Assembly: GCA_031270375.1 (NCBI GenBank)
Contig: JAISXR010000102.1
Location: 1 to 38,069, forward strand
Reading direction: 5' to 3'
Length of the DNA stretch: 38,069 bases
DNA from: Synergistaceae bacterium
Lineage (GTDB): Bacteria; Synergistota; Synergistia; Synergistales; Synergistaceae
The notes below the pieces were generated by a model. It saw only the letters and a program-made list of their open reading frames with translations. It made no database searches and had not been told where the DNA came from. Below, piece by piece: positions 10,815-27,925 of this stretch. How positions within the stretch are numbered: position 1 is the first letter of the stretch; each line of letters starts with the position of its first letter. A program made the translations under genes and the position numbers.

Positions 10815-11171
10815 ATGCGATGGTATTGTTTGGTTAATGAACTGAAACCGGAACACGCGGATGATTACGCTGACATACACAGGACCGCTCATCAGACCAG
10901 ATGGAAGACGCAGCTCGATGCCCTGCGGAATGCGGGCGCTCAAAACTGCGTGGTTTTCATGCATGGAAACGAGTCCATCCTGTTTTATCAGTGTGAGGAT
11001 ATCGACGAAAGTTTCGCCGCGTTGGGTAAGGATGACGACAACAACGAGTGGCAGGCGTTTATCGCGTCATGGTTTGCCGGAACGCCTAAATTTGACGGTT
11101 CGGAGAAGGTAAAGCCGCTGGAAAAGATATTCGACCTCAACGAACAGCTCGACGGATTTCTCCGGCAGTAG
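10815..11171 (+). CDS. L-rhamnose mutarotase (RhaM/DUF718)-like protein
   Basis: 118 aa dimeric ferredoxin-like alpha/beta pattern (YCLVNELKPEHADDYADIHR...LRNAGAQNCVVFMHGNESILFYQCE); GTGGAGGGG ribosome-binding region; first gene of a sugar locus. Confidence 0.65.
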   Translation: MRWYCLVNELKPEHADDYADIHRTAHQTRWKTQLDALRNAGAQNCVVFMHGNESILFYQCEDIDESFAALGKDDDNNEWQAFIASWFAGTPKFDGSEKVKPLEKIFDLNEQLDGFLRQ

Positions 11172-11174
11172 GGA

Positions 11175-12113
11175 ATGTGCGCCATGAAACGCATTACTGT
11201 CGTCGGAAGTTATAACGTGGGGCTTTTCCTAAAGGGCAGCGAGATCCCGGGCGTGGGACAGACTTTGATTGGCGACGAGTTTTTCGAAGGGGGCGGAGGC
11301 AAGGGTTCCAATCAGGCGGTCGCCGCCGCGAAGCTCGGCGCGAACGTTTCGTTCATCGGGCGTATAGGCGCTGACAAGTACGGACTGGACGCCATACAAA
11401 TGTATAACTCGTTCGGCATGTCGCGGAAATCTTTGATCATAGATCCCTCCTCGCATACCGGTATCAGCGTCATTTTCATAGACAAAGACGGAAACAATTC
11501 GATCATGGTGGTGCTCGGCGCCAATCTCAATCTGTGCGGCGACGATCTCGACGCAGCGGAATCGACGTTCAGGGAATCCGAGTACGTCGGATTTCAACTC
11601 GAAAACTCGGTGGCGTTGGTGGATTACGGGATAAGGAAAGCCCACGCGTTGGGAACCAAAGTTCTGCTTGATCCGGCTCCCGTGCAGCAAATAGCCGCCG
11701 ATTTATATCCGTGTATCGACATAATCAAACCGAACGAACATGAAGCGACCCTCCTGACCGGCATCAAGGTTGACGACAGGGAGAGCGCGCTCGAAGCGGC
11801 GCGATGGTTCCTCGGCAGAGGAGTGAAACACGCCATCATCACCCTTGGAGAGAAGGGCGTCGTATACGCGGCGTCGGATTCTGCCCGGGAATTCCCCGCT
11901 TATCCGGTGGTGCCCGTCGATACGACAGGAGCCGGCGATTGTTTCAGCGGGTCTTTGATGTGTGCCCTCTGCGAGGGCAAACCGTTCGGCGAGTCCATTG
12001 GCTTCGCGAACGCCGCCGCCGCTCTCTCAGTCACCAGGCGAGGTGTGGTGGACGCTATTCCGGCGCGCGATGAGGTCGATAATTTTCTGAAGGATGGAAC
12101 CATTTCAAAATGA
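11175..12113 (+). CDS. Ribokinase-like PfkB family carbohydrate kinase
   Basis: 312 aa; GGGGKGSNQAVAAAKLG, IIKPNEHEATLLTG, and PfkB signature DTTGAGDCFSG. Confidence 0.93.
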   Translation: MCAMKRITVVGSYNVGLFLKGSEIPGVGQTLIGDEFFEGGGGKGSNQAVAAAKLGANVSFIGRIGADKYGLDAIQMYNSFGMSRKSLIIDPSSHTGISVIFIDKDGNNSIMVVLGANLNLCGDDLDAAESTFRESEYVGFQLENSVALVDYGIRKAHALGTKVLLDPAPVQQIAADLYPCIDIIKPNEHEATLLTGIKVDDRESALEAARWFLGRGVKHAIITLGEKGVVYAASDSAREFPAYPVVPVDTTGAGDCFSGSLMCALCEGKPFGESIGFANAAAALSVTRRGVVDAIPARDEVDNFLKDGTISK

Positions 12114-13189
12114 CGACGAGGGAGAGAATGCTTGCGGTATACGAACATAAAATCCCCGATCGCTTTCCGGTCGGCATCTATGGACGATACCTGCCGCGGG
12201 GTGAAATAGAGAGAAAACTTCGGGATAAAGGCCTCGGCATAATAACGTATCATCCGCTCGTCACTTTTTTGGGGCCTCCGTGGCACGACCTTCCCGGTTA
12301 TATCTCGGACGTCAGAAACACCAGCGTGCGAGAAGATCGATATTTCGAAAGCGGAAGAATGGTCAGGCGGATCACTTATGAAACGCCGGTAGGATCGGTA
12401 TGGAGCGAAAAAGAACCGTCCGTGGGGGACGGAAGCGAGCATACGAGAAGCTATTTCATCAAAAGCGTGGAAGATTACAAGATCATGACGTATATCGTAG
12501 AACACACCGTGATATCTTCCAACGAACGCGCCATATCGCTCCGCCTCGCGGAACTGGGGGAAGACGGAGTGTTGCTGGGCAGGCTGGACAGAAGCCCGTA
12601 TCAGAAATTGCTGCTCGAGTTTGTGGGCGGCGAGCGTTTTTTGGTGGATATCTTCGAGGAGACGGAGGCCGTCGAGGAATTGATGGACGCAATGTATTTG
12701 AGGCTCGAAGAATCTTATGAACAGGCGCTCTCGACAGAAGCCCTTCTGGTCTGGCAGCCCGATAACGTGACGTCCGACATGACGCCCCCGAGATATTTCG
12801 AAAAATACCTTCTCCCATATTACAAAAAACTCTCGGCCGCGGTGCACGCAAGCGGAAAAAAACTCGCGGCGCACTTCGACGGGAAGGTAAAAGCCATCAG
12901 CGACCTGATACCGCGGTCCGGCGTCGACGTGCTGGATTCCCTGTCTCTTCCGGAAATAGGCGGGGATATGACGCTCACCGAAGCCCGCCGGGCGTTCAGC
13001 GGCGTTTCGGTGTTCCCGAACTTTCCGGCGAACCTGTCACCGGCAGACGAGAAAGACATTCGTGCCTTCCTGCGCGTTCTCAAAGCGGAAGCGGGGACGG
13101 ACGAGCCGTTCATGCTGCAGATCAGCGAAGACCTCCAGGAAGGTTCATGGGCGCGTGTGCTGCCCATTATAGCTGACGAAATGTTGTGA
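12110..13189 (+). CDS. Uroporphyrinogen decarboxylase (UroD)-family protein, divergent and cysteine-free
   Basis: 359 aa; UroD-like N-terminus (TTRERMLAVYEHKIPDRFPVGIYG) and C-terminal barrel; overlaps the ribokinase stop by 4 bp (ATGA). Confidence 0.75.
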   Translation: MTTRERMLAVYEHKIPDRFPVGIYGRYLPRGEIERKLRDKGLGIITYHPLVTFLGPPWHDLPGYISDVRNTSVREDRYFESGRMVRRITYETPVGSVWSEKEPSVGDGSEHTRSYFIKSVEDYKIMTYIVEHTVISSNERAISLRLAELGEDGVLLGRLDRSPYQKLLLEFVGGERFLVDIFEETEAVEELMDAMYLRLEESYEQALSTEALLVWQPDNVTSDMTPPRYFEKYLLPYYKKLSAAVHASGKKLAAHFDGKVKAISDLIPRSGVDVLDSLSLPEIGGDMTLTEARRAFSGVSVFPNFPANLSPADEKDIRAFLRVLKAEAGTDEPFMLQISEDLQEGSWARVLPIIADEML

Positions 13190-13309: not shown

Positions 13310-14299
13310 ATGAAGAGATTTCTAACGACGATGGCAGCATTGTTTTTAATGTCTGGTATTCTCGCGGCCGCTTCCGTCTGTTTCGCGGAACCCGTGACTA
13401 TTGGCGTCTCGTTGGACAACCTGGACGACCCGTTCTGGGTGGGAATCAAGACGGGCATCGACGCGGCAGAGAAAGAACTGGGCGATAAGGTCAAGATAAA
13501 TATACAGGTCTGCCAGGGCGACGCCAACGTCCAAAACAAACAGATACAGGACATGGTAACCGCCGGCGCGCAGGCCATTGTGTGCGTTTACGTCGATAAA
13601 GAGGCCATTTTGCAGTCAGTCAAGCTCTGTAACGAGAAAAATGTCCCGTTCATATACTGCGACCGCACGCTTGACAGTACGCCGGACGCGCAGGTGGCGT
13701 GGGGAATCGCCACGGACAACTATGCCCTGACCGTCAACGGATGGAAATGGATGGCCGATTATGCCCGCTCGCAAAATATCAAACTCAAGGTACTTGAGCT
13801 TGTGGGTTCGCTTACCGACAACAATGTCCTGAGACGCACAAAGGGTTTCGAGGATGTGATGAAGGATAACTCCGACATAATAGAGCGCGTCCAGAGCGTG
13901 CCTACCGAGTTCAATCTGGAAAAAGCGCTTGCCGGCACGACGAACGCCCTGCAGGCGGATCCCGACATAAACTGCATTTTCATGCATTCCGACTACCTGC
14001 TTGCCCCGACGATCCAGGCGCTTGAGGCGGCCGGACGCTATGTCAAGATAGGGGAGCCCGGACACGTGATAGTGATGCCGTTCTCCGGCAATTCCGGTTC
14101 CGTAAAGGCCATGAAGGACGGTTACGTCGAGATGACGTTCGGAATGGACGTATATAAGTGCGGTTACGAGGCGATTTTTGCCGGATATAACATAGCCACC
14201 GGAAGTAAAACTTACGACGCTCCGGCCGATGACCCGGGATTCATCCTTACGCAGGAGAATCTGTCGGAAACGGCTCCGAGAGCTTACGGTTCGTTCTAG
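13310..14299 (+). CDS. Sugar ABC transporter substrate-binding protein (RbsB-like)
   Basis: Signal peptide MKRFLTTMAALFLMSGILAAASVCFAEP; IGVSLDNLDDPFWVGIKTGIDAAEKELG; start set at 13310 with AGGAGGTAACGATT upstream. Confidence 0.92.
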   Translation: MKRFLTTMAALFLMSGILAAASVCFAEPVTIGVSLDNLDDPFWVGIKTGIDAAEKELGDKVKINIQVCQGDANVQNKQIQDMVTAGAQAIVCVYVDKEAILQSVKLCNEKNVPFIYCDRTLDSTPDAQVAWGIATDNYALTVNGWKWMADYARSQNIKLKVLELVGSLTDNNVLRRTKGFEDVMKDNSDIIERVQSVPTEFNLEKALAGTTNALQADPDINCIFMHSDYLLAPTIQALEAAGRYVKIGEPGHVIVMPFSGNSGSVKAMKDGYVEMTFGMDVYKCGYEAIFAGYNIATGSKTYDAPADDPGFILTQENLSETAPRAYGSF

Positions 14300-14327: not shown

Positions 14328-14415
14328 TGAGCGGGGTTGAATATCTCAAAGCGGTCGGCCGCAGGGTGGGTTCACATTGCTTGGCGCCGGTCGCTTTGAC
14401 TACGGAGGAGTATTG

Positions 14416-15387
14416 ATGGCGGAGACAGCGGGAACAAAACGCGTTTTTATGATATTAGGAAGACAGCACACTCTATTGTTTTTTGTCGTTTTTACTGTCG
14501 CGGCCATCTTCTTCGTGCCGAAATTCGCAAACCCGGAGAACCTGATCAACATATTGGTCCAATCCTCTGACCTCATCATATTGTCTTGCGGCATGACGTT
14601 CGTATTCCTGAACGCGAGCATTGATTTTTCCGTCGTGGCGGTGTTGGCGCTTGCCAGTGTTTTCGGGGCCAAAATACTCACGGGCGGCGGAAATACCGCC
14701 GTCAATATAATTTTGGCGATAATTGCCATGCTCGCGACAGGGGCGGTCATAGGCATTATCAACGGGCTCGCCGTAACCAGGCTGAAGATGCCGTCTTTCA
14801 TAGCCACCATGTCGACCCAGCTCATCTTCTCCGGAATAGCGCTCACCCTGACCCAAAGCAGTACCATCGGCAATATTCCGAACGCTTTCAACGCCATCGC
14901 GCAGGGCAAATTCCTCGGCGTTCCGATTCCGAGCGTCATCACCACCGCCGTGGCCGGAGCGTCCATCTTTCTGCTTCATTTCACCGTGCAAGGACGCAGA
15001 TTTTTTGCCGTGGGGACGAACCAGAGGACGTCCAGAGTGTCGGGCATTTCAATTAAAAAAACGATAATGAGCCTCTTCGTCATCTCGGGAATCTCGGCGG
15101 CCATCGCCTGCATCATCATGACGGCGAGACTCGGCGCGGGAATTCCATCTCTTGGCAAGGACATGGTTATGGACATCGTGGCCGCCGTCGTCGTCGGGGG
15201 AACCAGCGTCTCCGGCGGAGAGGGCGGCATTCTGGGGACGGTGGCCGGCGCGATCCTCATAGTCGTGTTGAACAACAGTTTGAATCTCCTCGGAGCGGAA
15301 TGGTACACGATAAATATCTGCAAAGGCGTTCTGATTCTCGCGGCTTGCATGTTGAACTCCCTGCGGGCCGGGCCGCAAGGCGCCTAG
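14416..15387 (+). CDS. Sugar ABC transporter permease (RbsC-like)
   Basis: Multi-TM; permease motif GGTSVSGGEGGILGTVAGAILI; ATG 14416 preceded by GGAGGAG. Confidence 0.9.
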   Translation: MAETAGTKRVFMILGRQHTLLFFVVFTVAAIFFVPKFANPENLINILVQSSDLIILSCGMTFVFLNASIDFSVVAVLALASVFGAKILTGGGNTAVNIILAIIAMLATGAVIGIINGLAVTRLKMPSFIATMSTQLIFSGIALTLTQSSTIGNIPNAFNAIAQGKFLGVPIPSVITTAVAGASIFLLHFTVQGRRFFAVGTNQRTSRVSGISIKKTIMSLFVISGISAAIACIIMTARLGAGIPSLGKDMVMDIVAAVVVGGTSVSGGEGGILGTVAGAILIVVLNNSLNLLGAEWYTINICKGVLILAACMLNSLRAGPQGA

Positions 15388-15399
15388 GAGGTGTATCTG

Positions 15400-16899
15400 G
15401 TGGGCAAGGCAATCATGGAGCTTAAAAATGTCCGCAAGGATTTCGGCAGCGTCAGCGTTTTGAAGGGCATATCGCTCGTCCTGGAGCGGGGCCGCACCTT
15501 GGGGCTTGTCGGTGAAAACGGCGCTGGAAAATCGACGCTCATGAACATATTGGGCGGCGTATACGCTATGACCTCCGGAGAGATGCGGCTCGACGGCGAA
15601 CCATACTCGCCCCGCAATCCAAAGGAAGCCTCCGAAAAAGGAATCGCGTTCATCCATCAGGAACTCAATCTGTTCACGAATCTCACTGTCGCGGAAAACA
15701 TCTGTCTCGACACGCAAAAAAGGGGTCAGTTCATTCTATCATCGAGACAGATGGGAAAAACCGCCGAGTCGGTTTTGGACAGACTCGGCGTCACGGTTTC
15801 CGCGGGCGCGGTAGTCGAGGAGCTGCCAGTCGGTATGAGGCAGATGGTGGAGATCGCGAAAGCCCTGTCGAAAGAGGCGAAGATCGTCATTTTCGACGAG
15901 CCCACCTCGTCTCTTTCCACGCCGGAAAAAAAGAATCTGTTCCGCGTCATAAGGGAGCTTTCCCAGGCCGGCATCGCTCTGATTTACATTTCTCACGCGT
16001 TGGACGACGTTCTGGATTTGTGCGACGAAATTCTGGTCATTCGCGACGGCGAACAAATTGGCGAACAGACGCCAAAATCAATGATAACCAAGGAAAAAAT
16101 GATACGGATGATGGTTGGGCGGGAGATGGGGCAGTTATATCCGTATAACGCGCGCGAGCGCGGCGGCGAATATCTGAGAGTGAGCGGACTGACCAACGCC
16201 AACGGATTGAGGAACGTCGACCTTGTCATACGCGGGGGAGAAATTGTCGGACTTTTCGGGCTCATGGGGGCGGGGCGCAGCGAACTTGCACGGGCCGTCT
16301 ACGGATTGGATCCCATTGACGGGGGAACGGTTTTTTTCATGGGAACTCAGGAGAGAAACATGTCGCCGGGGATGTGGCTCGAAAGGGGCATGGCCTTCAT
16401 CACCGAAAACCGCAGGGAGGAGGGGCTGCTGCTTCCAAAGTGCGTGCAGGAAAATATCTCGTTGGTCAATCTGGATAAATATAAAACCCGTTTCGGAGTG
16501 CTGAGCAAAAGCGCCGAAAAAAACGATTGCGCCAAGACAGTGTCCCACCTGAGAATAAAATCGGGCAATCCGGACCAACAGGCCGCCCGTCATTTATCGG
16601 GAGGGAATCAGCAGAAGGCCGTCATAGGCAAGTGGCTTCTGATAAATCCCAAAGTCCTCATCATGGACGAACCGACGCGGGGAGTCGATGTCGGGGCCAA
16701 GTATGAAATATATTCCCAGATCAACGATATCGCGGAAAAAGGGAGCGCTATACTCTTCATATCGAGCGAGATGGAAGAACTGATCGGAATCTGCGACAGA
16801 ATAGCCGTGATGTACGGAGGGCGGATTACCGGCGAACGGGCGCGCGGAAATTTTTCTCAGGAAAGCCTGTTGAAATTGGCGATAGGAGACGTTGCGTGA
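15400..16899 (+). CDS. Sugar ABC transporter ATP-binding protein, two ABC domains (RbsA-like)
   Basis: Walker A GENGAGKSTLMN, Walker B IVIFDEPTSSLS and VLIMDEPTRGVDVGAK, signature LSGGNQQKAVIGKWL; start GTG 15400 or ATG 15415. Confidence 0.93.
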   Translation: MGKAIMELKNVRKDFGSVSVLKGISLVLERGRTLGLVGENGAGKSTLMNILGGVYAMTSGEMRLDGEPYSPRNPKEASEKGIAFIHQELNLFTNLTVAENICLDTQKRGQFILSSRQMGKTAESVLDRLGVTVSAGAVVEELPVGMRQMVEIAKALSKEAKIVIFDEPTSSLSTPEKKNLFRVIRELSQAGIALIYISHALDDVLDLCDEILVIRDGEQIGEQTPKSMITKEKMIRMMVGREMGQLYPYNARERGGEYLRVSGLTNANGLRNVDLVIRGGEIVGLFGLMGAGRSELARAVYGLDPIDGGTVFFMGTQERNMSPGMWLERGMAFITENRREEGLLLPKCVQENISLVNLDKYKTRFGVLSKSAEKNDCAKTVSHLRIKSGNPDQQAARHLSGGNQQKAVIGKWLLINPKVLIMDEPTRGVDVGAKYEIYSQINDIAEKGSAILFISSEMEELIGICDRIAVMYGGRITGERARGNFSQESLLKLAIGDVA

Positions 16900-17870
16900 G
16901 ATATACAGCGAAAGACCGTCCCGAAGCGGGTTTTTTTACATACTTTTATAAATACGGGCTATACGTGGTATTGTTGTCGCTGATACTCATTTTTTCGCTG
17001 ATAAATCACAATTTCTTCAGTGTCAACAACGCCCGCAACCTTTTGCAGCAGACGTCATCCGCGGGCATCGCCGCGGCCGGGCTCGTGTTCGTTCTCGTCA
17101 CCGGAGGCATCGACGTCTCGATAGGTTCCACGCTCTTCATGACGTCGATAATTTCGGCCCTGCTCACCGACAACGGGCTGGGTTTTTGGGGCGCGGTCGG
17201 CGCGTCTATGCTGTGCGGCGCGTTGATAGGCTGCGTCAACGGTTTCTTCATCGCGAAGATCAAAATGACGCCGTTGATAGTGACGCTCGCTATGATGTAT
17301 ATCATAAGGGGCGTGGCGATCACCATAGTCGGAATAAAGACCACGTTTTTCAACAATCCCATAGGGATATTCATAGCCAGGACGCGGCTGTTCACGGTAA
17401 TCCCTGTAGTAGTGGCGGTGCTGGCGGTCACCGCCGCCATCGCCCAGTTTATCCTGGGCAAAACCTTATTTGGAAAACAATTGTACGCGATAGGCAACAA
17501 CAGAACCGCCGCCGAAATCTCCGGTATCAAGGTAACGCGGAATATTTTCATATCCTACGTGATATGCGGCATGCTGGCCGGATTGTCCGGGCTTATTTCA
17601 GGGGCGCAGGTCGGGGGGATTTCGCCCACTTTCGCGCAGGGACAGGAATTTATCATAATTTGTTCCACCGTTTTAGGCGGCGTGAGTCTTTTCGGAGGGC
17701 GGGGCAAGGTGTTTCCCGGCGCGTTTTTGGGGGTTCTCATCATCATGTGCATAGAAAACGGGCTCGTGATGGCGAGGACAAATATGTACGCGTATACGAT
17801 AATCAGGGGTATAATCATTTTTATAGCCGTCATGCTCGACAGCCAGCGTAACAGGGGAGAAACGCGTTAA
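16896..17870 (+). CDS. Sugar ABC transporter permease (RbsC-like), second permease
   Basis: Multi-TM; VLVTGGIDVSIGST and LGGVSLFGGRGKVFPGAFLGVLII motifs; overlaps the ATPase stop by 4 bp. Confidence 0.9.
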   Translation: MRYTAKDRPEAGFFTYFYKYGLYVVLLSLILIFSLINHNFFSVNNARNLLQQTSSAGIAAAGLVFVLVTGGIDVSIGSTLFMTSIISALLTDNGLGFWGAVGASMLCGALIGCVNGFFIAKIKMTPLIVTLAMMYIIRGVAITIVGIKTTFFNNPIGIFIARTRLFTVIPVVVAVLAVTAAIAQFILGKTLFGKQLYAIGNNRTAAEISGIKVTRNIFISYVICGMLAGLSGLISGAQVGGISPTFAQGQEFIIICSTVLGGVSLFGGRGKVFPGAFLGVLIIMCIENGLVMARTNMYAYTIIRGIIIFIAVMLDSQRNRGETR

Positions 17871-17910: not shown

Positions 17911-18882
17911 ATGAGCCGACAGAATAAAAAATTTTTGGCCGCGATCGCACTCTTGATGTGCGTCCTGATATTCCCGGTCATTTACCTGGGACTTCAGGAC
18001 GACGACAGGCCTGTGATCGGAATTTCGCTGTACGACATGAAATTCGATTTTTTCAAGGAGATGGAAAAAGGGGCGCGAACCCATCTGGAGGAAATGTCTT
18101 ACAGGTCGGTCGTCGAAGATCAGCGGAGCGACACTAATAAACAGATAGAAAGCTGTCTTGAACTCATCGGCGCGGGAATAAAAGCTCTCATCGTCTCTCC
18201 CATAAACTCCACCGCGATGTCCCGGATAATCAAGGAAGCGCACGGGAAAAATATATACGTCATCGTCATAGATATCGGCTGCAATGATCCCAATTATGAC
18301 GCGTATGTGGTCTCGGACGGCATAGAGGGAGGGCGGATGGCCGGAGAGTTTCTCAAAGACGTGCTGGAGCGGGAAAATAAAACGACAGCGAGAGTGGCGG
18401 TGTTCAGGAACAATCCCGAGGTCGCGGTGGCTCACTCCAGGGGAGACGGTTTTCTCGAGATAGCTTCCGAATACGGATGGTACAAAGAGGCCGATATCGT
18501 GGCCGAAGGGGAGACCGAGCCGGCTTATCGCAAGATGAGCGAGATGCTGCGCGGCGGGTCGAAAGTGGATGTCGTGTTCTGCACCAACGACCCCATGGCG
18601 CTCGGGGTTTCCAGGGCGTGTATCGATAACGAGCGAAAAGACGTAAGGATCATAGGGTTCAACGGCGATGTGGAGGCATTGAGCGCCATCCGCGAGGGGA
18701 AAATGCTGGCGACGATACAGATGTATCCCTACGCGATGGGCGAAATAGCCGCGGATCTCGCCGACATGTTGATAAGGGACGTCCCAATTGACTTTGACCT
18801 GCCCGACTCGAAGACCGTGCTGATCCCGGTCGCGCTGATCCACGAGGGCAATGTGGACAACGCGTACAAATCCCTGCATTGA
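17911..18882 (+). CDS. Periplasmic-binding-protein-like sugar sensor, probably membrane-anchored
   Basis: 323 aa; single N-terminal hydrophobic segment without an obvious cleavage site (KKFLAAIALLMCVLIFPVIYLGL); Peripla_BP fold sequence; immediately upstream of a YesM-type kinase. Confidence 0.85.
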   Translation: MSRQNKKFLAAIALLMCVLIFPVIYLGLQDDDRPVIGISLYDMKFDFFKEMEKGARTHLEEMSYRSVVEDQRSDTNKQIESCLELIGAGIKALIVSPINSTAMSRIIKEAHGKNIYVIVIDIGCNDPNYDAYVVSDGIEGGRMAGEFLKDVLERENKTTARVAVFRNNPEVAVAHSRGDGFLEIASEYGWYKEADIVAEGETEPAYRKMSEMLRGGSKVDVVFCTNDPMALGVSRACIDNERKDVRIIGFNGDVEALSAIREGKMLATIQMYPYAMGEIAADLADMLIRDVPIDFDLPDSKTVLIPVALIHEGNVDNAYKSLH

Positions 18883-18892
18883 GGTTGTTGGG

Positions 18893-20698
18893 ATGTTTCA
18901 AAAAATAAAAATGATTTCTTCGCGCACAAAAATGCATACGCGTCTCATCATAACTTACTCCACCCTCATGGTGGTGATTTTATTGACGCTGGGCATACTG
19001 TTCGGCCGTTCCGCCCGGACGCTTCTTCAGGAAAACGCGGCGAGGAATTTGAACACGACGATATCGGCCGTCGAAAAAAGGCTGGATATCGCTCAAAGCG
19101 AAATGAGCCTCTTCGTCGACTATATAAGGGAGAACCCGGAGATAAAAAAACAACTGGCCGAGGGACACAGAATAACTTCCAATATTTGGCTCAAGCGCCT
19201 CATGACGGAGGTTATCAACAAAAACAGCCAGATATACAGGGCGAGCGTTATCAGCCTGTCGGGTGAATTTCTGTCTACTAACGAGGCTTCTTTCAACGCC
19301 ACGACCCCGCAGGGCGTGATGGGAAACGAATGGTTGCGGGCGATAGACCGTACCGATCCCGACATCGTGGTGTTCCTGCCTCCGCGTTACGATAACTGGA
19401 TCGAAAACAGGCACGTGATGGTGTATTCGCTGGTCAAACCGGTCGTCTATATCGGCAGGGTGGTCGGACATGTGGAGATACAACGGCGAGTGAGCGAATT
19501 TTCGGAGATCATCGGCGGCGCGAACGACGACATAACGCTTGCCATCGTGATGTCGAACGGCAAGGTGTTCTTTTCCAACAAAAAACTCGTCAGCAAAAAA
19601 CTGATAAACCACTATATCGCGGCAAGCTCCGGCAACGCCGTTCATATCCTGCCGAACCCGTTTTCAAACGTGCTCGAGGTGATAGCGGGTACGCGAACCA
19701 AACAGGGGTGGGCTATATTCGCGAACTTGAATTATCAAAAAATACTCGATCCTCTGCAATCCGTTCAAAAAATAATTTTCATGGCGATTTTATTCGTGTT
19801 TTTATTTTCGGTGATGTTCATATTCATCTTCTCGAATCGTCTCACGATTCCGCTTCGCAGGCTGAAGAACCATATTGACACCGTCAATCTCGATAACCTT
19901 CACGTCAATGAAATTCCGCTTCTCAAAAGCGAAAATGACGAAATATCTGCGCTTCAGGATACGTTCGAGAGAATGCAGACGCGCCTGAAAGACGCCATAG
20001 ACATGGAGATGAAGTTCCGGTCTTTGCAGGCCAAAGCGCATTTCGACGCCCTTCAGGCCAGGATCAACCCTCACTTCATATTCAACGTCCTGGGTATACT
20101 AGTCAACATGGCTGAGGAATACGAACAGCCCGAAATAGCCGACGTGTGTCAGAAACTCTCGAACAATCTGCGGTATACCACGCAGGCGAGCGATTCTACG
20201 ACGAACGTCTGCCAGGAAATAGAAAACGTCAAAGATTATCTCGCTCTCTTGAAAAAACGTTTCGAGCACCGCTTGGAATATGATATTTCGGTCGACGAAA
20301 AACTTTATCCGCAGATACTCCCAAAATTCTGCATGCAGCCGCTCATCGAAAACTCTGTCGCCCATGGATTCGCACAAAAAATCTGCGACGTGATGCATAT
20401 TTCGATACTGGGACGTTTCCTCTCATCCGACACGTGGGAGATTCAGTTCAGCGACAACGGAGCGGGGTTCCCACCCGAATATTTAAACGGACTCATAGAG
20501 AGGATAGAGGATTATAAAGTCAAAGTCCTGACCCATGAGAAACCCGAGGAATTGTCGATAGGCGGCATGGGAATAATAAACACGATAGCCCGCCTGAGCT
20601 TTTTCTTCGGGGATAAATTCAGATATGAAATCCGCAACGCCGATGACGATGGGGCAGTGATCAGCCTCATGGGAAAAATGACAGTGAAAGAGGCATGA
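18893..20698 (+). CDS. Sensor histidine kinase, YesM/LytS type (His_kinase + HATPase_c)
   Basis: Two TM segments, HAMP-like linker, ARINPHFIFNVLGILVNMAEE phosphoacceptor motif, QPLIENSVAHGF N box; start set at ATG 18893. Confidence 0.92.
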   Translation: MFQKIKMISSRTKMHTRLIITYSTLMVVILLTLGILFGRSARTLLQENAARNLNTTISAVEKRLDIAQSEMSLFVDYIRENPEIKKQLAEGHRITSNIWLKRLMTEVINKNSQIYRASVISLSGEFLSTNEASFNATTPQGVMGNEWLRAIDRTDPDIVVFLPPRYDNWIENRHVMVYSLVKPVVYIGRVVGHVEIQRRVSEFSEIIGGANDDITLAIVMSNGKVFFSNKKLVSKKLINHYIAASSGNAVHILPNPFSNVLEVIAGTRTKQGWAIFANLNYQKILDPLQSVQKIIFMAILFVFLFSVMFIFIFSNRLTIPLRRLKNHIDTVNLDNLHVNEIPLLKSENDEISALQDTFERMQTRLKDAIDMEMKFRSLQAKAHFDALQARINPHFIFNVLGILVNMAEEYEQPEIADVCQKLSNNLRYTTQASDSTTNVCQEIENVKDYLALLKKRFEHRLEYDISVDEKLYPQILPKFCMQPLIENSVAHGFAQKICDVMHISILGRFLSSDTWEIQFSDNGAGFPPEYLNGLIERIEDYKVKVLTHEKPEELSIGGMGIINTIARLSFFFGDKFRYEIRNADDDGAVISLMGKMTVKEA

Positions 20699-21711
20699 CC
20701 ATGTACAACGTGTTCATCGTGGACGACGAGCCGCCTCTTGTGCGCGTTTTATCGAGAAAAGTGGAAAATTACGGGAGCGGTTTCAGCGTGTGCGGTTTTG
20801 CGTACAACGGAATAGAAGCGGCGCAGAAGCTCGAAAATCTCGACGCCGATGTCCTGTTGTCCGATATAAGAATGCCCGTGATGGATGGGCTCGCGCTGAT
20901 ATCTCTCGTCAAAAGGTCACACCCGGATATACTCTCGGTCGTAGTGAGCGCTTACCAGGATTTTGAATATGCTCAGTCAGCGATACAACTGGGGGCCGTC
21001 GATTATTTACTGAAACCCATAGACTCCGAACAATTCGGAAGGACGTTTAAACGGCTGGAGGAGCTGCTGTTCAGGGATAGCGCTGAAATAGACGAAAAAA
21101 CAGAAACTTGCCTCACAAAAATAGATTTCCTGCTTCTTCAAAATGACAGAAACGAACTGCTCAACGTGTTGGCGAAACTGCGCCGTTTCCTCACGGAAAC
21201 GAAGCATACAGAAAAGTACATGACGGATGTCTCGCGCAGAATCCGCGATATTCTGAGCAGCAGGCTCGGCGTCGAGAGCGCCGTGCTGTCAGAATCCGCG
21301 GGCGGCAAAGATAACTTCGCGTTTTTCACGGAGATAATTGACGAGCACATGGGCTGCGACGGTCCCTCTTCGCCGAAAGTGACGATGGTGCTCATGTCCA
21401 GGATAGACGAATATATCCATAAAAATCTCGAGCACGCCATGTCGCTGTCCGATATCTGCGGCGATATGCACGTGAGTCAGCCTTATATAAGCCGTGTGGT
21501 AAGGATGTATCGACGGATGTCGTTTACGGAATACGTGACCCATTTACGCATACGGAAAGCTCAGGAAATAATGCGAGCCGTGCCGGACGCCAGAATAAAG
21601 GATGTCGCCAATGCCACGGGTTACGAAGATCAGCACTATTTCAGCAAGGTCTTCAAAGCGATTGCCGGTATCACCCCATCCGAATTCAAAGACGACCTGA
21701 AATCGTCATGA
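20695..21711 (+). CDS. Response regulator with AraC-type DNA-binding domain (YesN-like)
   Basis: REC (DADVLLSDIRMPVMDGLALISLVK) and C-terminal AraC HTH (LRIRKAQEIMR...VANATGYEDQHYFSKVFKAIAGITPSEFK); ATGA overlap with the kinase gene. Confidence 0.94.
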   Translation: MTMYNVFIVDDEPPLVRVLSRKVENYGSGFSVCGFAYNGIEAAQKLENLDADVLLSDIRMPVMDGLALISLVKRSHPDILSVVVSAYQDFEYAQSAIQLGAVDYLLKPIDSEQFGRTFKRLEELLFRDSAEIDEKTETCLTKIDFLLLQNDRNELLNVLAKLRRFLTETKHTEKYMTDVSRRIRDILSSRLGVESAVLSESAGGKDNFAFFTEIIDEHMGCDGPSSPKVTMVLMSRIDEYIHKNLEHAMSLSDICGDMHVSQPYISRVVRMYRRMSFTEYVTHLRIRKAQEIMRAVPDARIKDVANATGYEDQHYFSKVFKAIAGITPSEFKDDLKSS

Positions 21712-23305: not shown

Positions 23306-24415
23306 ATGAAGGGTAAGCACAGCACGGCCAAGTTCGTATCACTGTTCCTCGGAATATTTGTCATGGCGTTCATGTGGCAAATCGCGCCGGCTCCGGTGTC
23401 CGCGTCCGAAGCGTATATCGGCAAAATTCCCATAACGCTGAAACACGACGTGCACGGCAATGACGCGCGCTGGGCAAAAATCTACGCGGCCGAGAAATAC
23501 GGCGCGAAGTATGAAGTCATCGACCCCGACCAGGACCTCACCAAGGAAATAGCGGCGGCCGAAACGTTCATCAGCAAGGGCGTGGACGGAATCATCCTCC
23601 ATCCGGTCACGGAGGACGGCGTCAACGAAATTATCCAGGAGATCCGCGACGCCGGAATATATGTGATGACCTACAATGTGGAAGCCTCCGCCAAGAAAGT
23701 GCCCGCGCTTCTCATCGACGAAGCCGAAGTCGCGGCCCAGATGGGCGCCGACATGTGCAAAAAATGGGTGGAACTCTATCCCGACAAACCGGTTAAAATC
23801 GGTCTCGTGAGCTGGACCAACATAGCGTTCTGTTTCGACAACCGCACCGGTCCCTTCCTCGCGGGCGCGAAGACCGTGATCGACTATCTGCCCAAGGACG
23901 ACTGGGGTTTCAAAAACAGCAAGGGCGAGAATCTCACCGGGGCGACATATTGGGAGCACGCCGGCGGAGTGCTCGAGAAGGCCATTCAGGTCACTTCCGA
24001 CGCGATAATCAAACATCCCGACGTCAATATAATCTACGGGGACAACGTATCCAACGGGCTCGGCGTGGCGGCGGCCTATGAGGCGGCGGGCCGCGGCAAG
24101 GCGGTTGACGGGGTGCCCCAGACCGAGATAATAGCCTCGACCGACGCCAGCGACGGCGAACTCAAAAAGATAGCCGACCCGACCTCCTCGCTGAAATACT
24201 GTCTCGGTATGCAGCCCCAGACGTTCGCGTACGCGCAGATCGACATGATGATGGAACTCATTCAGGGCAAACTCGACCCGGATACCTATGTCGTGAGATA
24301 CACCCCCGACACGTATTTCAACTACTACAAGGACAGTATAAAGACCATGCAGGACTGGTATAACACGCAGTATCTGCCCGACTCGCCGCTCGAACTCGCC
24401 GGCGCCGGCAAATAG
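23306..24415 (+). CDS. Sugar ABC transporter substrate-binding protein (second locus)
   Basis: Signal peptide ending ...APAPVSASEAY; Peripla_BP_4-like sequence; AGGAGGG upstream of the ATG. Confidence 0.9.
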   Translation: MKGKHSTAKFVSLFLGIFVMAFMWQIAPAPVSASEAYIGKIPITLKHDVHGNDARWAKIYAAEKYGAKYEVIDPDQDLTKEIAAAETFISKGVDGIILHPVTEDGVNEIIQEIRDAGIYVMTYNVEASAKKVPALLIDEAEVAAQMGADMCKKWVELYPDKPVKIGLVSWTNIAFCFDNRTGPFLAGAKTVIDYLPKDDWGFKNSKGENLTGATYWEHAGGVLEKAIQVTSDAIIKHPDVNIIYGDNVSNGLGVAAAYEAAGRGKAVDGVPQTEIIASTDASDGELKKIADPTSSLKYCLGMQPQTFAYAQIDMMMELIQGKLDPDTYVVRYTPDTYFNYYKDSIKTMQDWYNTQYLPDSPLELAGAGK

Positions 24416-24429
24416 CGCGGTTTCACACC

Positions 24430-24459
24430 GGCCGGCGTCCCCCGGCGGGGATGCCGGCC
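24430..24459 (+). promoter_or_regulatory. Intercistronic hairpin after the second substrate-binding-protein gene
   Basis: GGCCGGCGTCCCC-CGGC-GGGGATGCCGGCC: 13-bp stem with one G-U pair, no T run. Confidence 0.7.
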
Positions 24460-24486
24460 ATCCGCATCTTAGGGAGTTGGGTAAAT

Positions 24487-25980
24487 TTGGAGAACATCCT
24501 CGAAATCAGAAACGTGAGCAAACAGTTCGCGGGCGTAAGGGCACTCGACGACGTGAGTTTCGACGTGATAAAGGGCTCGTGTCACTGTCTCGTAGGCGAG
24601 AACGGAGCGGGCAAGTCCACTCTCATCAAGATACTGACCGGAGCGCACCCCAAAACCTCCGGCTCCGTGAAGTACGAAGGGCGCGAATGGAGTCCGGGAA
24701 GCACGCGCGACGCCATGCACAACGGCATCGGCTGTCTCTTTCAGGAACTGAACGTCGTCGAGAAGCTGAGAGTGGAGGAGAATATCGTCCTCGGGCTCGA
24801 AAAGACCGCGTTCGGTATCATAAGGAAGGGACAGAACCCGAAGGTATTCGAGATGCTGAAGCGCCTCGACGCGAGCATAAAACCGTCGCAGTACATAGAG
24901 GAACTGAGCGTCGCCAAACGTCAAATAGTCGAGATGGCCAAAGCGTTAGCTATGGAATCGAAGATCATAATAATGGACGAACCGACGAGCGCGCTCACCG
25001 CCGAGGAGACGCGCAGGCTTTTCGATATAATCGCCGAACTCAAGAGCGCGGGCATCACGATAATTTACATCACCCACAGGCTCGAAGAAGTGATGGAACT
25101 CGCGGATTACGTCACGGTTCTGCGCGACGGGCATCATATAGCCACCAAACCGAGGCGGGAGATAAAAAGCAGGCAGGACCTCATTCAGATGATGATCGGC
25201 AAGATAATCGTCGAGGGATACGTTCCAAACAGCGTAAACAAAAAAGTTAAACTGATCGAGCTGAAGGATGTGACGAACGACAAACTGAAAGACATTTCTT
25301 TTTCGCTTTACGAGGGAGAAATTCTCGGCTTTTACGGCCTCATCGGCGCCGGAAAAAGCGAGATCGCGCGCGCCATCTTCGGCGCCGACAAGTATTCGGG
25401 CAAAATATTAATCGAAGGGCGCGAACTCAAACCAGGTTCGACGCTGAACACTCTCAGAAGAGGCATAGCGATGGCCCCGGAGGAACGAAGAACCCAGGGC
25501 GTCTGCACCATGCTTCCGATAGCTTCCAATATTCCGATGATGAATTACGGCTCCGTCTCGAAATGGGGGATAAGGAACAGCGCGCGCCAGTCCGCCGTGT
25601 CAAAAAAATATATAGACGCGATAGGGATAGCCTGCCGCAACGAACAGCAATCAGTGGCCTATCTCTCAGGGGGCAATCAGCAGAAAGTCGTCCTGGGCAA
25701 ATGCCTCAACGCGAATCCGCGTGTGCTTCTCCTCGACGAGCCGACGAGGGGAGTCGATGTCGGGGCCAAACAGGAGATTTATCACATCATAAGGGAACTG
25801 GTGAAGGGCGGCTGCTCGGCGATAGTCTTTTCGAGCGAGCTTCCTGAGATATTGGGGCTCGCCGACCGAATCGGGCTTCTTTTCGGGGGGCATATAGTCG
25901 AATTTTTGGAAAACGACGCCGCTTTGGACTCGGGATACATAATGAACATAGTGACTGGAGGAGCCGTGGTCAATGGATAA
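24487..25980 (+). CDS. Sugar ABC transporter ATP-binding protein, two ABC domains
   Basis: GENGAGKSTLIKILTG, IIIMDEPTSALTAEE, LSGGNQQKVVLGKCL, DEPTRGVDVGAKQEIY; TTG 24487 preferred because the ORF-track ATG (24451) lies in a hairpin. Confidence 0.93.
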   Translation: MENILEIRNVSKQFAGVRALDDVSFDVIKGSCHCLVGENGAGKSTLIKILTGAHPKTSGSVKYEGREWSPGSTRDAMHNGIGCLFQELNVVEKLRVEENIVLGLEKTAFGIIRKGQNPKVFEMLKRLDASIKPSQYIEELSVAKRQIVEMAKALAMESKIIIMDEPTSALTAEETRRLFDIIAELKSAGITIIYITHRLEEVMELADYVTVLRDGHHIATKPRREIKSRQDLIQMMIGKIIVEGYVPNSVNKKVKLIELKDVTNDKLKDISFSLYEGEILGFYGLIGAGKSEIARAIFGADKYSGKILIEGRELKPGSTLNTLRRGIAMAPEERRTQGVCTMLPIASNIPMMNYGSVSKWGIRNSARQSAVSKKYIDAIGIACRNEQQSVAYLSGGNQQKVVLGKCLNANPRVLLLDEPTRGVDVGAKQEIYHIIRELVKGGCSAIVFSSELPEILGLADRIGLLFGGHIVEFLENDAALDSGYIMNIVTGGAVVNG

Positions 25981-26950
25981 TCAAGCGGCCGTTACGGGAA
26001 AACGCGCGGTTCGCCTCACCGCGGACGGAGTGCAGAATATCACGATATTCGTCATTTTTATGGCGGTCTGTGCCGTTGGGTATTTTTTCGAGCCGGAACT
26101 TTTCATGTCGAACGAAAACATCATCAATATTTTCGTGTCGTCGTCCAGCGTCATCATGGTCGCGGCTCCCGTGACGCTGGTGCTCATATCGGGCAACCTC
26201 GACCTCTCGGTGGGGGGCGTGGGGGCGATGTGCGCCGTGCTGTTCGGCCTCATGACCCATTATGGCGTAAGCATACCTCTCGCGGTGTTATTCTCCATTC
26301 TCTGCGGGGCGGCGAGCGGGTTCATCTGCGGACTCTCCATCTCCGCGTTCGCACTGCCGTCGTTCATAATATCGCTCGCGTTCAAGTATATCGGCAGAGG
26401 GGTAGCGCTGATTGGGGCGCACGGCGCCGTGGTGTTCGGCATTCCTTACGGAGTGGCGCCCATAGGGGGCTCGATGTTCGGATTTCCCCTTCCCATGCTG
26501 TACGCCATAGCCGCCACGCTTATATTCATGTTCATACAGGCCAATACGGTGTTCGGCAGCAAGTGTTACGCGACGGGCGCCAACATGCAGGCCTCGAAAC
26601 TCTCGGGCGTCAGCGATAAACTGGTGGTTACCGGAGTTTTCACGCTTTCCGGAATCATGGCCGCTTTCGCGGGCATCGTCCTCACGTCGCGCGTCATAGC
26701 CGCCGACAGCGGCATATTCCCTTCGCTCGAAAGCGACTGCATAATAGCGGCGGTACTTGGCGGAACCGACATCAACGGAGGGCGGGGCACGGTGTTCGGG
26801 ATGTTCATAGGCGCTCTTTTCATCACGGTGCTGACCAATATCATGAACATGCAGGGCCTCACGGTCTACGTGCAGAACGTGGTAAAAGGCTTCGTCCTGA
26901 TTCTCGCGATAGTCTTGAACGGCGTAATTCGCGAACGCGTCAGGGTGTAG
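25973..26950 (+). CDS. Sugar ABC transporter permease
   Basis: Multi-TM; LISGNLDLSVGGVGAMCAVLFG and LGGTDINGGRGTVFGMFIGALF motifs. Confidence 0.9.
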   Translation: MDNQAAVTGKRAVRLTADGVQNITIFVIFMAVCAVGYFFEPELFMSNENIINIFVSSSSVIMVAAPVTLVLISGNLDLSVGGVGAMCAVLFGLMTHYGVSIPLAVLFSILCGAASGFICGLSISAFALPSFIISLAFKYIGRGVALIGAHGAVVFGIPYGVAPIGGSMFGFPLPMLYAIAATLIFMFIQANTVFGSKCYATGANMQASKLSGVSDKLVVTGVFTLSGIMAAFAGIVLTSRVIAADSGIFPSLESDCIIAAVLGGTDINGGRGTVFGMFIGALFITVLTNIMNMQGLTVYVQNVVKGFVLILAIVLNGVIRERVRV

Positions 26951-26962
26951 GAGGAAACTGGC

Positions 26963-27925
26963 ATGAGCAAATCGACGAGACAAAACCTGATGCTCCTGGC
27001 GGTACTTGCGGCGATGTTCATCTTCTTCACCTTCCAAAACGCCAGATTCGCTTCCTTGTATAATCTCACCAACATGTTCAGGCAGAGCCTGCCCAACCTC
27101 ATCTTGGGATGCGCCGCGATGTTCGTGATAGTGTCCGGCGGAATAGACCTGTCGGTTGGCGGCACGATGGCGCTTTCCGCGCTTTTTTACGGATATCTCT
27201 GTCTATGGGGGGTAAACGCGTGGCTCGCGATTCCCATAGTGGGCGTTTTGGGGGCTTTTGTGGGCGCGGCCAACACCTTCATAATGGAAAAACTCAAGAT
27301 ACCCGGAATAATGGCGACTCTCGCGACATGGATAATAACCTCGGGCATGGCCTTCATGGTTTGCAGGGCTATCCCGCTGAACGACCCGCTGCTGAAGCCG
27401 GTCGTGATCCTCAATTCCATGAAATTCTTCGGCAACAGGATACCGCTTGCCATTCCGATAGTCGCGGCGGTGTCGGCGATATTTCTGTTTCTCGAACGGC
27501 GTACTGTGTTGGGCAAGTACGCCATCGCGATAGGAGGCAACGAGCTGGCCGCGTATTATTCGGGAATCAGCGTCGTCAAGATCAGGATGATATTTTTCGT
27601 GCTGAGCGGGATCATGGCCGCGCTCTCGGGAATCTGGCAAGTGGCGCGTCTCGGCTCCGCCGATCCCACCATCGGAACGGGAATGGAGTTCAACGTTTTG
27701 GCGGCCTGCATACTTGGCGGTGTAAACATCAAGGGCGGCGAGGGCACCATAACCGGAATGCTTCTGGGCACCCTCATTCTCATGGTTCTCCTGAACGGGA
27801 TGCAGATGATGGGCGTCGACTCCTTCTTCCAGTCGGTCGCGACCGGAGTGGTGCTCTATATAGCGGTGCTCTTGAATACCCTCATGAGCAGGTTCAGGAT
27901 GAAAGTAAAAACCGTCGGCGCGTGA
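26963..27925 (+). CDS. Sugar ABC transporter permease
   Basis: Multi-TM; IVSGGIDLSVGGTMALSALFYG and LGGVNIKGGEGTITGMLLGTLIL motifs. Confidence 0.9.
   Translation: MSKSTRQNLMLLAVLAAMFIFFTFQNARFASLYNLTNMFRQSLPNLILGCAAMFVIVSGGIDLSVGGTMALSALFYGYLCLWGVNAWLAIPIVGVLGAFVGAANTFIMEKLKIPGIMATLATWIITSGMAFMVCRAIPLNDPLLKPVVILNSMKFFGNRIPLAIPIVAAVSAIFLFLERRTVLGKYAIAIGGNELAAYYSGISVVKIRMIFFVLSGIMAALSGIWQVARLGSADPTIGTGMEFNVLAACILGGVNIKGGEGTITGMLLGTLILMVLLNGMQMMGVDSFFQSVATGVVLYIAVLLNTLMSRFRMKVKTVGA

Follow-up and report, generated by a model that had tools for sequence, protein, structure and literature searches.

Introduction

The methylcobamide:CoM methyltransferases of the MtaA/MtbA type, represented by the structure 4ay7, belong to the URO-D family and possess a His-Cys-Cys zinc site. 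We take His237, Cys239, and Cys316 of MtaA, numbered by counting in the printed alignment, to be the zinc ligands. HemE belongs to the same fold family. Within the superfamily, His-Cys-Cys sites serve sulfur substrates, and carboxylate substitutions occur in O-methyltransferases, which use oxygen substrates (PMC10418091). CdmB performs corrinoid methyl transfer without zinc in a cavity lined mainly by aromatic residues, and a Moorella O-demethylase shows zinc-free activity (PMC13222342). Our literature search revealed no account of URO-D proteins in sugar operons.

Here, we analyze a URO-D-like gene located in the window, that is, the whole 38,069-nt stretch of DNA under study. A preliminary description had noted that the gene product lacks Cys, carries an H-F-D-G sequence at the motif position, and is encoded with a 4-bp overlap to a kinase gene. 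It proposed a carbohydrate-modifying enzyme involved neither in heme synthesis nor in corrinoid methyl transfer.

Results

A cysteine-free URO-D protein encoded in a sugar uptake operon

PF01208 was the sole Pfam match of the protein, with 43.1 bits at a cut-off of 23.9 (E = 4e-11, residues 173-276), which assigns it, if weakly, to the URO-D family. Its relatives, described below, align over the full length, as seen in the clade alignment and the tree. MtaA-type NCBIfam models reached 21-28 bits at cut-offs of 235-600, including TIGR01463 with a below-threshold 26.5 bits (cut-off 235.4), and the hemE model gave no match in the NCBIfam search. Three H-D-E relatives examined also had no NCBIfam match, and a phmmer search of the PDB with the protein as single query returned noise only. 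The AlphaFold2 model calculated from a two-row alignment had a pLDDT of 37, and the H-D-E site was mapped by alignment to MtaA only.

The translation confirmed the absence of Cys (0 of 359 residues). At the genome Cys frequency of 1.36%, the probability of this outcome is ~0.008, and among the 141 called genes with 300 aa or more, 3 likewise encode no Cys. Thus, the absence of Cys alone is a weak signal. It is not a family trait either, since all other H-D-E relatives contain at least one to two Cys each. The H-F-D-G sequence (residues 255-258) and the overlap with the kinase gene were found as described (Table 1).

Table 1. Features of the URO-D locus in the window
Feature	Position	Strand	Basis
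rhaM-family mutarotase	10815..11171	+	PF05336, 2.4e-13
PfkB kinase, ribokinase-like	11175..12113	+	TIGR02152 (NCBIfam ribokinase), 305 bits, cut-off 299.65
URO-D superfamily protein, 359 aa, 0 Cys, His-Asp-Glu site	12110..13189	+	ORF translation, Pfam, ligand columns, tree
ATGA, 4-bp overlap of kinase stop (TGA 12111-12113) and URO-D start (ATG 12110-12112)	12110..12113	+	Sequence
Asn219 codon; Asn in nearly all H-D-E/H-D-D rows, Asp in His-Cys-His class	12764..12766	+	Clade alignment
H255-F-D257-G258, columns of MtaA His237-x-Cys239	12872..12883	+	Alignment to 4ay7
Glu340 codon, column of MtaA Cys316 (presumed third zinc ligand)	13127..13129	+	Alignment to 4ay7
Sugar-binding protein (Peripla_BP_4, RbsB-like)	13310..14299	+	Pfam, NCBIfam
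BPD_transp_2 permease	14377..15387	+	Pfam
Tandem ABC ATPase, rbs type	15391..16899	+	Pfam
BPD_transp_2 permease	16896..17870	+	Pfam
Second Peripla_BP_4 protein, adjoins sensor kinase	17911..18882	+	Pfam
Sensor histidine kinase (His_kinase, HAMP)	18851..20698	+	Pfam
Response regulator, AraC-type	20695..21711	+	Pfam

According to Pfam, the operon encodes a mutarotase and a kinase and lacks an isomerase and an aldolase. The consensus scans gave matches near chance levels and did not define the operon ends. No corrinoid protein was found across the 38-kb window. A second rbs-type ABC system, consisting of a binding protein, an ATPase, and two permeases, is located 3' of the sensor/regulator pair at positions 23306-27925.

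Ligand columns and triad classes

The ligand columns were mapped with a profile of the URO-D proteins of the own genome and of a genome of the same genus, to which MtaA (4ay7) was aligned over its full length. The HIC and PGC motifs of MtaA share columns with H255, D257, and E340 of the window protein. The URO-D ORFs that we collected comprise 46 with an H-D-E, 24 with an H-D-D, 17 with an H-C-H, and 10 with an H-C-C triad, plus a few others. Since the triads sort into distinct classes, the substitutions are joint rather than single; judging from the alignment, the step from His-Cys-Cys to His-Asp-Glu is an exchange of the sulfur-based zinc site as a unit. Nor is the motif change due to chance, as it is fixed across a clade of ~70 proteins. 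H and D do not vary across the H-D-E/H-D-D alignment, and H, D, E, and N are retained despite an identity of only ~20-29% between the window protein and its relatives.

Two URO-D proteins (L179:8798-9886 and L180:8863-9912) carry His-His-Cys in the ligand columns and Gln at position 219 and represent a further class. An ORF of 1532 aa (L162:4833-9428) has a URO-D (HDD) domain at its C-terminal end only, and the remainder gave no Pfam match.

Phylogeny and distribution

The first relative, with 32% identity, came from a Victivallales MAG (L015) and was the sole match in a search of genome contigs. From the class and phylum of this genome, we collected ~70 relatives with H-D-E or H-D-D plus Asn219, mostly from Lentisphaeria and its phylum. 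In a maximum-likelihood tree that included MtaA and two HemE sequences, the HDE and HDD proteins grouped together (100/100), as did the HCH proteins (100/95) and the HCC proteins with MtaA and HemE (99/99). The window protein falls within the HDE+HDD clade, which excludes HemE, MtaA, and the His-Cys-His paralogs; its basal position in the HDE half has weak support (82/54). By its sequences, the H-D-E/H-D-D clade is an uncharacterized branch of the URO-D family, described here. The tree and the missing hemE model match bear out the earlier notion that the protein does not serve heme synthesis.

No close homolog of the window protein was found among 188 genomes of its own phylum or in viral contigs or plasmids; scans of viral contigs with alignments A2, A4, and A5 gave no match. 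Very large URO-D expansions were observed in several genomes (e.g., G206, G248, and G207), with one Lentisphaeria genome reaching up to ~90 candidate places.

Gene neighborhoods of the clade members

Genes near URO-D loci were called as longest ORFs, and the neighbors at own-genome, control, and clade loci were labeled by phmmer against a reference set so small that distant family members are missed. Within 6 kb of the 71 HDE/HDD members, we found Gfo/Idh (23), FGGY kinase (5), corrinoid protein (2), RACo (1), MTTB (2), and MtaB (1), with missing neighbors under-counted because the contigs are short and the assemblies fragmented for most of the genomes. Around HDE genes, the Gfo/Idh density was 0.89 per 10 kb in the nearest 1.5 kb, ~4-fold the value of about 0.2-0.3 seen at distances above 3 kb. 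Eleven Gfo/Idh genes lie within 1.5 kb of HDE relatives, nine of them on the same strand; around HDD genes, no proximal peak was seen. At L064 and L065, genes for an AraA-like isomerase and an FGGY kinase adjoin the H-D-E genes.

Some clade members reside beside methyltransferase genes. The row at L082 reads corrinoid protein, RACo, HDE, and HCH, with the RACo and HDE genes overlapping by one base. At L166, a corrinoid protein gene is located upstream of, and on the same strand as, an HDN-HDD-DDH run. The same order of four URO-D paralogs, HDN-HCC-HDE-HCC, recurs in two genomes (L138:8092-12192 and L141:6705-11068). The preliminary description had raised a constant association of the homologs with mutarotase, PfkB kinase, and rbs-type transporter; among the 71 clade members, the window member alone has this set.

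URO-D paralogs and corrinoid machinery

The own genome, whose contamination is given as 6%, contains 18 URO-D places above the Pfam cut-off (the window gene and ~17 more), of which the window gene scores lowest. The paralogs are mostly of the His-Cys-His class. Those of this class occur in the same kind of operon as the window gene, with an rbs-type ABC system and a PfkB or FGGY kinase, but they differ from it by their H-C-H ligands, Asp at position 219, and a clade of their own (100/95). Sugar-gene density around the own-genome URO-D genes showed no decay with distance out to 9 kb, and control contigs were therefore used for comparison. At the other URO-D loci, which span 210 kb, we counted 10 rbs-type ATPases and 9 sugar kinases; the twenty control contigs, with 227 kb in total, gave 3 and 0, respectively. 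We conclude from this enrichment (19 vs. 3) that the sugar context is real.

A genome of the same genus (G001, 97% complete) has two HCH genes flanking an rbs-type ATPase, permease, and binding protein and gave no match to RACo, indicating that URO-D proteins of sugar operons can work without RACo. In G003 and G037, HCC genes are grouped with corrinoid protein and RACo genes; the recovery of these groups demonstrates that our method is able to detect corrinoid operons. In G045, an HCH gene immediately follows a corrinoid protein gene, and the HCH class is thus not purely corrinoid-free.

Of the 23 Lentisphaeria genomes in which clade members were verified, 22 have RACo, compared to 71 of 175 others (Fisher 3e-7, uncorrected for phylogeny and genome size). 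The own genome encodes four RACo, two corrinoid proteins, MtaB, CODH, acetyl-CoA synthase, and a CdhD-type subunit, so that an O-methyl group could be utilized by the organism, which may be a methylotrophic acetogen. The genes for CODH, acetyl-CoA synthase, and the CdhD-type subunit, and that for MtaB with a corrinoid protein and RACo, are located on contigs C82 and C285 (L103 and L101) of this genome (G000). In different genomes, many of the RACo_C_ter matches span a single in-frame stop, frequently TGA; the match may simply extend beyond the natural stop.

Discussion

The window protein shares with the MtaA/MtbA-type enzymes the URO-D family, the motif His, and the ligand columns. It differs from them by Asp257 and Glu340 in place of both Cys, by its separate clade, and by NCBIfam subfamily scores of about 26-28 bits at cut-offs of 235-244. 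The superfamily and a probable hard (oxygen or halide) substrate are common to the window protein and the corrinoid methyltransferases I CdmB, MtvB, OdmB, and VdmB. However, CdmB, the sole member compared, has a motif that aligns as FQG and binds no metal, and the window gene, unlike those systems, has no corrinoid protein nearby. HemE shares the fold family; the window protein is set apart from it by a position outside the HemE branch, the sugar operon, and the H-D-E site.

In the preliminary description, the lack of Cys was taken as an argument against corrinoid methyl transfer. This reasoning is unsound, because carboxylate sites serve O-methyltransferases (PMC10418091) and CdmB is zinc-free (PMC13222342). 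The L082 operon with its corrinoid protein and RACo, and the RACo, MtaB, CODH, and acetyl-CoA synthase genes of the own genome, also speak against it. By the rule in PMC10418091, the loss of Cys rather predicts a hard, oxygen-bearing substrate, and the target of the protein is probably an oxygen of the imported sugar.

Our main reading, with a probability of about 0.4, is that the window protein takes part in corrinoid-linked O-demethylation of an O-methyl sugar. The metal binding, substrate, and corrinoid use that we infer are as follows. H255, D257, and E340 would hold a divalent metal, probably Zn2+, which would bind a hard oxygen ligand of the imported sugar. The O-methyl group would then be transferred to Co(I) of a corrinoid protein whose gene lies elsewhere in the genome and enter the Wood-Ljungdahl pathway, and the freed pentose would be phosphorylated by the ribokinase-like enzyme of the overlapping gene. 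This reading is favored by the clean triad classes, the 100/100 clade, the match to the MtaA columns, and the PMC10418091 rule, as well as by the gene orders at L082, L166, and L138/L141, the co-occurrence with RACo, and the corrinoid genes of the own genome. It is disfavored by the lack of a corrinoid protein in the 38-kb window, by the fact that just 2 of the 71 clade members have one in their 6-kb vicinity, by two corrinoid proteins facing ~18 URO-D genes in the own genome, and by the HCH sugar-operon genes of G001, which occur without a RACo match.

We slightly prefer O-demethylation over a corrinoid-independent metal enzyme, which is a realistic if somewhat doubtful alternative. Here, the H-D-E site with Zn2+ or Mn2+ would enolize, epimerize, or cleave (by β-elimination or retro-aldol reaction) a sugar or oxidized sugar and might thereby supply the isomerase or lyase step missing from an operon that has mutarotase and kinase. 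The abundance of rbs-type ATPases and sugar kinases at the own-genome URO-D loci and the HCH genes around the rbs-type transporter of G001, a genome with no RACo match, are in line with this chemistry. So are the AraA-like isomerase and FGGY kinase at L064 and L065 and the Gfo/Idh genes adjoining H-D-E relatives, although Gfo/Idh is common in these genomes and no such link is seen at the window member. Sets of oxidation-elimination enzymes are known from levoglucosan catabolism (PMC7676230), but the literature searched yielded no precedent on a URO-D barrel, and the clade members at L082, L138, L141, and L166 lie within methyltransferase operons.

The zinc-free activity of CdmB and the Moorella O-demethylase (PMC13222342) raises the question of whether the window protein could be a metal-free corrinoid methyltransferase of the CdmB/MtvB kind, in which H-D-E would bind the substrate and not a metal. 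This seems unlikely, since the CdmB motif, in one alignment, is FQG with neither His nor Asp, as opposed to the invariant H and D of the clade, and the CdmB cavity consists mainly of aromatic residues (PMC13222342). Least probable, and in our estimate very unlikely, is that the protein is a HemE or else a URO-D protein with no enzymatic function, be it vestigial or regulatory: the gene is single, divergent, and rare, but the tree places its product outside HemE, H, D, E, and N persist at ~20-29% identity, and the gene overlaps the kinase gene by ATGA.

The carbohydrate role put forward in the preliminary description is thus supported by the own operon, the sugar uptake and kinase context of the paralogs, and the Gfo/Idh genes near H-D-E relatives; its corrinoid-free premise was not upheld. 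A placement within HemE or among zinc methyltransferases with alternative ligands had been held to speak against that role. The protein lies outside HemE and the His-Cys-Cys MtaA group, but a relation to alternative-ligand methyltransferases is partly indicated by the carboxylate-ligand O-methyltransferases, zinc-free CdmB, the L082 operon, and the own-genome corrinoid genes.

At somewhat less than even odds, the H-D-E/H-D-D clade may constitute a new URO-D-fold class that acts directly on carbohydrates, as metal-dependent lyase, epimerase, or sugar O-demethylase, and was co-opted into sugar uptake operons beside the parallel His-Cys-His branch. Anaerobes contain very large numbers of URO-D homologs, yet the reactions known for them are few, and the ligand-set class (HCC, HCH, HDE, or HDD) combined with gene context provides a simple criterion by which to sort them. 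Should the sugar role prove correct, it would mean anaerobic demethylation of O-methyl sugars or, alternatively, new sugar chemistry on a heme-biosynthesis fold.
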